DNA of 28,653 bases. Source: a virus. The notes below the pieces were generated by a model that saw nothing but the letters and a program-made list of their open reading frames with translations, made no database searches and had not been told where the DNA came from. The position numbers and the translations under genes are program-made. Below, one piece after another: positions 1 through 28,653 of this stretch. The DNA lies in IMG/VR virus record IMGVR_UViG_3300018476_000033, positions 1 to 28,653 of that record; one strand, written 5' to 3'. The stretch's first letter is position 1. Every line of letters begins with the position of its first letter.

Positions 1-123
1 CACAGAAGTACAGCACTGCGATACCTACTGCCACGATGAGCAGGCCTGTGCTGAGGAAGCCTGCGATGGCCCAGCTGTCCGTTCCTGTGGTGGGTAGCAC
101 TGATGGCGACACTGACACGCTGG
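1..123. repeat. terminal direct repeat, left copy
   Basis: These 123 bases are identical to the final 123 bases of the window. A minus-strand gene reads without interruption across the join. The simplest reading is that a circular molecule was written out with one overlap-length of duplication, so the true length is about 28,530 bp. Confidence 0.97.
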
Positions 124-235
124 CTGTGGTTGCTGGTGCTGGCTGTGTCGGAGCAATGCTGGGTGGCCCGTGTGGTGCCACTGTCGGGACGATGATGGCA
201 GTGGGACTGATCGTGGGTACTGGCTCATGGTTCAT
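1..235 (-). CDS. LPTTG-type small membrane protein (5' part; continues at 28653-28508)
   Basis: This gene crosses the window join: it starts with ATG at 235 and ends with TAA at 28510-28508, giving 85 residues on the circular map. The ATG has a good ribosome site (GGAAGGA, about 8 nt upstream). The first ~50 residues are rich in Pro, Thr, Ser, Ala and Val and almost uncharged. Next comes LPTTG, a ~22-residue hydrophobic segment and a short tail ending RTHRSH. That is the layout of a sortase cell-wall sorting signal. There is no signal peptide, and an in-frame stop at 313-311 rules out a longer upstream form except through GTG at 307. With a positive tail and an uncharged N-terminus, an N-out/C-in topology is plausible. 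The stop overlaps the next ATG (TAATG), so the downstream peptidase-like gene is probably translationally coupled. Function is unknown; holin-like, host-surface or exclusion roles are possible. Confidence 0.8.
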   Translation of the reverse strand, partial: MNHEPVPTISPTAIIVPTVAPHGPPSIAPTQPAPATTASVSVSPSVLPTTGTDSWAIAGFLSTGLLIVAVGIAVLYFC

Positions 236-309
236 GGTGTTGTTCCTTCCTGGTGTTCCTCTATGGGTGCAGTGCAGGGGACTTCTCCATGTTGGAGGGT
301 CGGGCACAT
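232..309 (-). CDS. possible 25-residue leader ORF
   Basis: A short ORF starts with ATG at 309 and ends in a TGA that overlaps the ATG of the LPTTG gene (ATGA). An AGGGGA about 11 nt upstream could serve as a ribosome site. The peptide (begins MCPTLQHG) has no recognisable domain and no hydrophobic segment, so it does not supply the missing signal peptide. The only support is the tight overlap with the next gene. It may be a coupling leader or chance. Confidence 0.25.
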   Translation of the reverse strand: MCPTLQHGEVPCTAPIEEHQEGTTP

Positions 310-25571: not shown

Positions 25572-25793
25572 TCATACGTCCGTGATGATGGTATGGAACT
25601 CGAACACCGTCCGTCCATCATGGCCATGCACTCGTATCGCAGACTCCATGCTGTCCCATACCACTGTGGACTTGTGGTCTCCTCTCCATCTGATGACTGT
25701 GGTGCCATCATCGAACTCCACGCCATCGGCGACTATGCCTGTGCCGCTGAAACCTGTGACATCCTCTGACCTGACCATCGAGAAGGTACGCAT
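25572..25793 (-). CDS. small beta-rich conserved actinophage-type protein
   Basis: A 73-residue protein. The order DVTGFSGTGIVADGVEFDDGTTVIRWRGDHKSTVVWDSMESAIRVHGHDG matches a short protein often present in actinophage early/accessory regions, of unknown function. ATG 25793 has AAGGA 5 nt upstream; the longer reading upstream overlaps two better-supported genes and is rejected. Confidence 0.8.
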   Translation of the reverse strand: MRTFSMVRSEDVTGFSGTGIVADGVEFDDGTTVIRWRGDHKSTVVWDSMESAIRVHGHDGRTVFEFHTIITDV

Positions 25794-25801
25794 GCTGGTC
25801 C

Positions 25802-25948
25802 TTATGAGTAGTCGTCCTGTCGTTTGTGGATACGGACTGTCTCTCTCTGTGTGGCATGCATGGTCTGTTGGATACGCATCAGCTTCCCGATCATGATGGT
25901 GTTCCACGCAGTGATGCCAGTGAGCATGACCAGTAGCAGGTCTGTCAT
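25802..25948 (-). CDS. 48-residue single-pass membrane protein
   Basis: A short gene. Residues 1-21 are one hydrophobic helix (LLLVMLTGITAWNTIMIG), followed by a basic, Gln-rich tail that ends KRQDDYS. ATG 25948 has AAGGA 7 nt upstream and overlaps the preceding stop (ATGA). Size and topology fit a mini-holin or membrane regulator; no sequence motif proves it. Confidence 0.7.
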   Translation of the reverse strand: MTDLLLVMLTGITAWNTIMIGKLMRIQQTMHATQRETVRIHKRQDDYS

Positions 25949-27123: not shown

Positions 27124-27438
27124 TCACGTCCCTAGGGTGTCCATGATGGATGCTATGCGGAACTGTCCTTTGTCCTCGGTGGTGAGCCTTCCTACGCCGG
27201 GCATCTTGTAGTCCGCTGCGTACTTGTAGCTCTTCGTGAGGATGTCCCCGTACCTGCTGAGAGTGCGTCTGCGGATGGTGGTGCACCGTTCACACTTCAG
27301 CTCCTGTAGGAATCCCTGCTTACGTGGTAGTGCTTCTGCCCAGAACGGTTTCCATGAGTGTCCATAGTCCCTACAGTGGATGGTCTGTGGGTTTGCGTTC
27401 TGGATGGCCGCTGCTAGTTGCCTGTCTCGTTCTGTCAC
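27124..27438 (-). CDS. small zinc-binding actinophage-type protein
   Basis: A 104-residue basic protein. C22 and H27 (HCRDYGHSW) with C49 and C52 (KCERC) make one zinc site. The rest (RRRTLSRYGDIL, YKYAADYKMPGVGRLTTEDKGQFR) matches a small protein frequent in actinophages with no fixed function. Start is GTG 27438, overlapping the preceding TGA as GTGA. Confidence 0.75.
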   Translation of the reverse strand: MTERDRQLAAAIQNANPQTIHCRDYGHSWKPFWAEALPRKQGFLQELKCERCTTIRRRTLSRYGDILTKSYKYAADYKMPGVGRLTTEDKGQFRIASIMDTLGT

Positions 27439-28508
27439 TGTCTGCTAGCGCTCCATCCCACGGGGTACTGTCCATACACCTTGTCCATTGATCCCCATCC
27501 TGACTTCTGGCCGGACCTGCCGAGGAAGTAGCTCCAGAAGTTCCCACAGTCAATTGGACAGGATGGGTCTGCTGGTGCTCCTAGGCCTGACACGTAGATA
27601 CCTGACTCGTCGTGGGCCCATGTGGCTGTGAGAGTGCCTGGCACGATGGTCCCTGCGAGGTTCTCTTGTTTGATACCGGTAGCGCTCCACAGTGCACCTA
27701 TGTCTGCGACCGTGGGCCACCAGGTGTGCCAGACCTGTCCGTTGCTGGCGACGTAGAGCATGTCCAGCCTGTCACTGTCGTACGGGCATTTGAGTAGCAC
27801 AGCTCCATCCCCTCCACTCGTCTGTGGGTTGGCTGGTTCTCCCCTGAGGACAGACAGGAGGAGGTTCTTGTTGTCATAGCTGCCTGACTTGTCCCTGTCC
27901 TCTGACCCGTGGATGTGCCAGTTGTGTGAGTCGTCCGATGTGACATCACAGTCATAGCGACAGTCATAACCCTCTACGTACCCGTCTGTGTCGTCCTGGC
28001 CGTAGAACTCTCGCCAGCCATCAAGCCTGTGGTCGTTGGGGTCCTTCGCCGACTTGAGGATCCTGTCTGTGTAGATGGATATCCGGGAGTAGTCGCCTCT
28101 CTGCGCTTCTGGGAACGTCCAGTCGAACGCTGCGGCTACTGTGGACAGACCCCCATCGTCGGGTGGTGAGTCCTCCACGGAGTAGTCATAGGGACTGTTC
28201 TGGCTGCGACTGTTGTGGTAACCAGGCTTGTTCGCATAGACCCCTCCAATCTGTGAGGTTGGCTCCAGCTTCAGCAGCTCGTCTATCAGGTAGTAGTAAG
28301 CGTCTGTGATGTAGCTGGAGCCATAGGGGGTTGGTGTGTTAGGTGTGCATCCTCTGTGTCTACGGATGGGTTTGGTCGTCAAACGTTTGCGTCGGTAGTC
28401 CTTCCACAGCCACCACAGAACGGGGATGAGGATGGCCAACAGCAGCAGTTTGACGACCACTGTCACAATGAGTGCGACAGTCCCCATGTCCATGTCGGAC
28501 AGGTCCAT
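27435..28508 (-). CDS. membrane-anchored peptidase-like protein with propeller-like C-terminus
   Basis: A 357-residue protein. Residues 9-33 are one long hydrophobic helix followed by KDYRRKR; acidic residues precede it. Residues ~75-215 contain GYHNSR, DYSVED, AAAFDWTFPEAQRGDYSRI, REFYGQDDTDGYVEGYDC and SHNWHIHGSEDRD. This arrangement resembles degenerate M15-like peptidases of actinophages; the first zinc His is not obvious. Residues ~245-350 (LDMLYVASNGQVWHTWW to SYFLGRSGQKSGW) look like a lectin-type propeller repeat. It may be the cell-wall-active lysis or virion protein; no other endolysin is recognisable. The positive charges after the helix predict C-in topology, which conflicts with that role unless the protein flips. 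ATG overlaps the LPTTG gene stop (TAATG). Confidence 0.65.
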   Translation of the reverse strand: MDLSDMDMGTVALIVTVVVKLLLLAILIPVLWWLWKDYRRKRLTTKPIRRHRGCTPNTPTPYGSSYITDAYYYLIDELLKLEPTSQIGGVYANKPGYHNSRSQNSPYDYSVEDSPPDDGGLSTVAAAFDWTFPEAQRGDYSRISIYTDRILKSAKDPNDHRLDGWREFYGQDDTDGYVEGYDCRYDCDVTSDDSHNWHIHGSEDRDKSGSYDNKNLLLSVLRGEPANPQTSGGDGAVLLKCPYDSDRLDMLYVASNGQVWHTWWPTVADIGALWSATGIKQENLAGTIVPGTLTATWAHDESGIYVSGLGAPADPSCPIDCGNFWSYFLGRSGQKSGWGSMDKVYGQYPVGWSASRQ

Positions 28509-28653
28509 TAGTGGCTCCGGTGTGTCCGACCACAGAAGTACAGCACTGCGATACCTACTGCCACGATGAGCAGGCCTGTGCTGAGGAAGCCTGCGATGGC
28601 CCAGCTGTCCGTTCCTGTGGTGGGTAGCACTGATGGCGACACTGACACGCTGG
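28508..28653 (-). CDS. LPTTG membrane protein, 3' part (continues from position 1)
   Basis: This is the C-terminal section of the gene described at 1-235, visible again here because of the terminal repeat: Ser/Val-rich linker, LPTTG, membrane helix, CGRTHRSH and TAA at 28510-28508. The 20 bases at 28511-28530 connect it to the repeat and show that the frame is intact across the join. Confidence 0.8.
   Translation of the reverse strand, partial: SVSVSPSVLPTTGTDSWAIAGFLSTGLLIVAVGIAVLYFCGRTHRSH
28531..28653. repeat. terminal direct repeat, right copy
   Basis: Identical over all 123 bases to the left end. It should be removed once before treating the sequence as a circle of about 28,530 bp. Confidence 0.97.

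Follow-up and report, generated by a model that had tools for sequence, protein, structure and literature searches.

A small gene with a sortase-type signal spans the ends of a circular phage genome

The DNA analysed here (the window) is a whole viral record of 28,653 bp whose start and end are exact copies of each other over 123 bp, so that the record represents a circle of 28,530 bp. The genome is that of a siphovirus-like temperate phage, with genes for terminase, portal, major head protein, tape measure and a serine integrase. Across the junction of the record ends lies a minus-strand gene for a protein of 85 residues, which in the order of transcription follows the replication genes and precedes the terminase. 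The features of this gene and of the repeat are as follows.

complement(join(28508..28530,1..235)), minus strand: coding sequence of the LPTTG gene, 85 aa, with homologues in six other viral records
1..235, minus strand: codons 1-78 and the first base of codon 79 of the LPTTG gene
28508..28530, minus strand: last codons and stop of the LPTTG gene, with a TAATG overlap with the endolysin start
83..97, minus strand: LPTTG sortase-type motif, residues 47-51, with L, P, T and G the same in seven of seven proteins
11..67, minus strand: hydrophobic helix, residues 57-75, followed by the basic tail CGRTHRSH (from hydropathy and charge difference)
244..251, minus strand: Shine-Dalgarno sequence AGGAAGGA of the LPTTG gene, with an SD-like sequence in all six relatives
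1..123, no strand: terminal direct repeat, left copy, an exact repeat of 28531-28653
28531..28653, no strand: terminal direct repeat, right copy

An earlier note had described an 85-residue protein that ends in LPTTG, a membrane helix and a basic tail, and this observation is confirmed for a real protein, MNHEPVPTISPTAIIVPTVAPHGPPSIAPTQPAPATTASVSVSPSVLPTTGTDSWAIAGFLSTGLLIVAVGIAVLYFCGRTHRSH. The note had placed it at positions 1-235, which holds for residues 1-78 and not for the whole gene, since the coding sequence continues to 28508 beyond the junction. The join across the record ends is not an artefact, because the relatives have the same gene order in mid-contig. The stop codon overlaps the ATG of the endolysin gene (TAATG), an arrangement of translational coupling.

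We further note two features of the surrounding DNA. Positions 236-418, 5' of the LPTTG gene, make up a strongly structured RNA leader as judged from folding (z about -5), with two perfect inverted repeats of 13-14 bp (269-282/320-333 and 361-373/401-413) and a third stem; this leader is confined to the window and not found in the six relatives, and was rejected as part of the system. The replication operon also encodes, at 2549-2767 on the minus strand, a 72-aa protein with a C-terminal helix and homologues in two related records (G003 and G013), which is an alternative holin candidate.

The coupled gene encodes a putative membrane-tethered endolysin

The neighbouring product, which the earlier note had called a membrane-anchored cell-wall-type protein, is more specifically a putative endolysin that bears a helix at its N-terminus and a lectin-like domain. 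Its parts are listed below.

27435..28508, minus strand: putative endolysin, 357 aa, membrane-tethered, with catalytic-domain relatives fused to PG_binding_1 and a conserved gene order
28404..28478, minus strand: N-terminal transmembrane helix, about residues 11-35, with DLSDMD outside and KDYRRKR inside
27831..28325, minus strand: catalytic domain, about residues 62-226, with 13 invariant columns in 60 sequences and a model pLDDT of about 90-98 over most of its length
27459..27830, minus strand: lectin-like C-terminal domain, residues 227-350, with two predicted propeller blades and Foldseek matches to PLL-type lectins

The window endolysin has no Pfam match, and its matches in PHROGs and NCBIfam are insignificant. 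The assignment as a putative endolysin draws on the fusion of its catalytic domain to PG_binding_1 in other phages (L010, L024, L026 and others), in bacterial genomes and in a plasmid. One relative matches the endolysin family phrog_1493. Among the invariant columns of the catalytic domain are an H, a D and an HxWHxH cluster. Sequence searches of Pfam and PDB gave no match for this domain, and fold searches, which were dominated by the lectin part, gave no family, so that its relation to M15-type peptidases is one of resemblance only. The domain (KPGYHN...DWTF...SHLWHIH) occurs widely in phages of actinobacteria and in proteins that Micromonosporaceae secrete, and represents an undescribed putative wall-hydrolase family. 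The C-terminal part of the window protein is modelled as eight strands, which we read as two propeller blades, and it matches PLL-type lectins with a Foldseek probability of 1.00 and E values of 9e-3 to 3e-2. The alignment used for the structure model excluded the plasmid row.

Many endolysins of this family (L016-L022, L013, L019, L023 and L025) carry a C-terminal membrane helix, some of them together with an N-terminal one, and membrane-tethered endolysins thus seem frequent in the family.

The LPxTG motif is conserved among divergent relatives

Immediately 5' of the endolysin gene, six further viral records (G001, G003, G005, G009, G013 and G015; loci L011, L013, L015, L019, L023 and L025) have a small ORF with LPxTG. 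The encoded proteins are of 71-86 aa and begin with an N-tail rich in Pro, Ser and Thr, which is followed by LPxTG, a helix and a basic tail. A further locus (L012), nearly the same as L011, ends before the position of the gene. The earlier note had asked whether gene order is conserved, and had held that homologues with the helix and without LPXTG would make the motif incidental. The pair of LPXTG gene and endolysin is kept in all seven records and LPxTG in all seven proteins; no homologue with the helix and without the motif was found.

Within the motif, L, P, T and G are invariant, and X is T in three of the seven proteins, V in two, and I and K in one each. Outside it, identity averages 32% and only three of the 56 other ungapped columns are invariant (start Met excluded); the corresponding Fisher value of 7e-5 is a guide and not a probability, as the rows are related. 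Six-frame translation of 1.30 Mb of DNA from related viruses gives 11,154 ORFs with a length of 40 aa or more; a rule that asks for LPxTG, a helix and at least two K/R selects only the ORFs 5' of the endolysin, in six distinct records, and a slightly different rule applied across all viral loci returns the same six records. When the regions before the helix are shuffled, the motif falls in place at 3e-4 to 2e-3 per protein.

The window protein scores 12.8 bits against TIGR01167, the NCBI LPXTG-anchor model (cut-off 15.9), and 10.7 bits against PF00746 (cut-off 20), and the claim therefore rests on conservation across relatives, the window protein alone being a sub-threshold match. All seven proteins match TIGR01167 at E<=1, three relatives score above its cut-off (G005 20.3, G015 27.2 and G009 23.2), and PF00746 matches six of the seven. 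Conversely, a profile built from the phage LPXTG proteins alone retrieves the sorting signals of bacterial surface proteins in seven of seven Micromonosporaceae genomes (best E 2.4e-8). These genomes have two to ten sortase matches each; no sortase match was found in the phage records searched. At the level of sequence, a conserved phage gene with a sortase-type signal can be regarded as established, and we consider it very likely that the LPxTG signal is real and selected.

A small protein of 55 aa with LPVTG, a helix and a short tail is encoded next to a glycosyltransferase gene in a Micromonosporaceae MAG (L162, 2025-2192, minus strand). It is too short for a signal peptide and is a possible bacterial counterpart.

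The LPXTG gene accompanies the lectin-like domain across lineages

Searches for the 357-aa protein were seeded from Micromonosporaceae genomes and a Micromonospora plasmid, and an alignment of the catalytic domain found 80 viral loci (81 counting the window). Single-sequence pattern scans of viral contigs for both proteins had returned nothing where the alignment-based scan succeeded. A profile of the lectin-like domain matches eight of the 81 viral loci, namely the window endolysin and seven others, and has no match in the remaining 73 or in seven bacterial loci. The LPXTG gene is present in seven of these eight loci, the eighth ending at the contig end before the gene position, and was seen in none of the 73 viral loci that lack the lectin-like domain, some of which end near the enzyme. 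A second scan with a full-length endolysin alignment gave no further LPXTG-linked member, and a tblastn search of isolate phages with the LPXTG protein and the endolysin as queries produced no credible hit.

The terminase large subunits (TerL) of three of these records (G003, G013 and G015) are 68-71% identical to that of the window and that of G005 about 25%, and the endolysins of all four are 53-54% identical to the window endolysin. With G005 at 54% in the endolysin despite its distant TerL, the LPXTG-endolysin pair behaves as one cassette across phage lineages. Together, the two genes very probably form a lysis cassette. The co-occurrence with the lectin-like domain may stem from common descent of a single module rather than from interaction.

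Another small protein of the window (25572-25880, minus strand) has matches of up to 71% identity at varied positions in six of ten related records, and in two related records its homologues lie directly beside the endolysin.

Predicted topology of both proteins

The earlier note had stressed the missing signal peptide and suggested N-out insertion as the route to the membrane. Inspection of the sequences revealed no signal peptide in any of the seven proteins, the starts of which are supported by Shine-Dalgarno sequences; an upstream extension of the window gene from the GTG at 307 adds MPDPPTWRSPLHCTHRGTPGRNNT, again with no signal peptide. As to orientation, the charges favour N-out/C-in in all seven: the N-tails are 33-48 aa long with zero to two K/R, and the C-tails are basic, although that of the window protein (two R and two H) is less so than those of its relatives, which have more K/R. 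By the charge rule, the LPXTG proteins are thus predicted to lie N-out/C-in. The same rule predicts N-out/C-in for the N-terminal helix of the endolysin in six of seven cases, the exception being G013, whose endolysin has a C-terminal helix in place of the N-terminal one. With its helix so oriented, the endolysin is predicted to stay inside, tethered, until the membrane opens.

To our knowledge, no protein that inserts by its N-tail has been proven to be a sortase substrate. Sortase substrates of actinobacteria are described as entering through Sec or Tat signal peptides (PMC10924467). Class E sortases of these bacteria prefer LAXTG (PMC5148588), and a class F or other enzyme may therefore be needed for LPTTG.

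Relatives of the catalytic domain point to Micromonosporaceae as a putative host family

The phages of this group are uncultured and probably infect soil actinobacteria. Relatives of the catalytic domain point to Micromonosporaceae as the putative host family. A TerL search at E<=1e-80 brought up no close prophage among 395 genomes of the class, and 201 Micromonosporaceae genomes gave matches to the catalytic domain only, with no LPXTG partner within 2.3-3.6 kb around each. PMT-family enzymes occur in six of the seven Micromonosporaceae genomes, and the Pro/Ser/Thr-rich stalks are plausible candidate targets of O-mannosylation. The G+C content of the window is about 58%, against 67-69% in close relatives (68-73% TerL identity), which perhaps reflects a recent host shift.

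A possible role in lysis and its alternatives

Phage lysis is usually described in terms of a holin, an endolysin and sometimes a spanin or LysB. Our literature search, which covered open-licence papers, found no precedent for sortase signals in phage lysis genes. The LPXTG protein probably acts in lysis. The reading that we favour, and to which we give a little less than an even chance, is that of a phage lysis-module protein with a genuine host-type sortase signal that is joined to the wall and serves the coupled endolysin. The protein, which lacks a signal peptide, would insert with its N-tail outside and its basic tail inside, and host sortase would cut between T and G. The stalk of about 50 residues would then be joined to lipid II, and thereby to the wall, while the helix would stay behind in the membrane. 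During lysis this anchored stalk, which the host might have O-glycosylated, would serve the coupled endolysin, in the likeliest case by offering its lectin-like domain a docking handle. Taken by itself, docking of the endolysin on the stalk is somewhat unlikely. That the phage co-opts host sortase in one of two ways, planting the stalk on the peptidoglycan as the receptor to which its own membrane-tethered endolysin binds through the lectin-like domain, or freeing the helix by cleavage as a timed hole-former, is possible but doubtful.

The chief rival holds that the protein is a holin or part of a holin system, in which a single N-out/C-in helix opens the membrane to let the endolysin through. 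It ranks first among the alternatives because no other small membrane gene adjoins the endolysin in all seven records, and because actinobacteriophages commonly have lysis proteins with one N-out/C-in helix (PMC13056207, PMC9671378). A variant of this proposal lets the sortase signal, if used, remove the outer stalk and so time or activate the hole-forming helix. Searches of Pfam and PHROGs gave no holin family match, however, and the known one-helix lysis proteins have the opposite layout, their outer part being short and their inner domain long and charged. In two relatives, a further ORF with two predicted helices lies just upstream of the LPXTG gene (L011 2879-3136 and L023 7071-7517), possibly a separate holin in each, and a holin role alone would leave the strict conservation of LPxTG and the link to the lectin domain unexplained. 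On balance, we judge the holin proposal unlikely.

Display at the surface is inherent in any sortase-anchored stalk, and phage-encoded envelope proteins that block adsorption, such as Llp of T5, are known. The stalk might thus label the infected cell by covering it, excluding other phages or stopping progeny from sticking to debris. This is improbable, in that the stalk is short and variable in sequence and the gene is coupled to the endolysin and tracks the lectin domain, not an immunity or receptor-binding gene. The label on the lysogen that the earlier note had proposed is weakened likewise, since the gene is coupled to that of an endolysin and to no gene for immunity or lysogeny. Alternatively, a short substrate produced in bulk could occupy sortase, or cap lipid II with peptides unfit for cross-linking, and so weaken the wall ahead of lysis. 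Such a decoy would require a conserved sorting signal only, and would account for the featureless, variable stalk and for the adjacency to the endolysin; but it would be needed in large amounts, it leaves the lectin link unexplained, and sortases are non-essential in the laboratory actinomycetes studied, with sortase mutants of A. missouriensis having been made (PMC13251363). We regard it as decidedly improbable. Least probable is that LPTTG is a by-product of a Pro/Thr-rich stalk before an ordinary helix. Stalks of this composition do increase the chance of LPTTG, and the window protein alone lies below the curated cut-offs, but the conservation of L, P, T and G in seven of seven proteins with X free, against the 32%-identical background, and the three relatives above the TIGR01167 cut-off led us to reject this proposal as largely refuted.

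Should the favoured reading of a wall-joined stalk that serves the endolysin be true, N-tail insertion would bring a phage protein that lacks a signal peptide into the sortase pathway, and the rule for possible sortase substrates would be widened. Because the gene is strictly paired with one for a lectin-bearing endolysin, its function is open to direct test with two small genes.

Comparison with known systems

Among lysis proteins, the phage LPXTG protein resembles LysF1b (PMC13056207) and the one-TM proteins of Gordonia phages (PMC9671378) in being small, having one helix with a predicted N-out/C-in orientation and belonging to a lysis cassette. In F1 mycobacteriophages, LysF1b has the behaviour of a holin (PMC13056207), and the LysF1b type is defined by an N-out/C-in orientation and a long charged cytoplasmic domain (PMC13056207), whereas the phage LPXTG protein has a long outer part and an inner tail of about ten residues. 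DumpTruck gp33, a Gordonia phage protein with a signal and one TM, was rejected as an analogue, as it has no LPXTG.

The partner enzyme is related to phage endolysins with PG_binding_1 (L010, L024 and L026), the catalytic domains being 48-59% identical; the LPXTG-linked endolysins carry the lectin-like domain in place of PG_binding_1, and one or two membrane helices. This lectin-like domain in turn resembles the PLL-type propeller lectins of Photorhabdus (PHL, PLL2 and PLL3) in blade fold, with an rmsd of 2.4-2.9 Å over 106-112 columns, but has two blades only and matches them at Foldseek E values above 0.001.

With the actinobacterial LPXTG cell-wall-anchored proteins (TIGR01167, PF00746), the phage protein shares LPxTG, helix and basic tail in this order, together with a Pro/Ser/Thr-rich stalk. 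It differs from them in having neither a Sec or Tat signal peptide nor a folded domain, in its length of fewer than 90 residues, and in being encoded by a phage, next to an endolysin.
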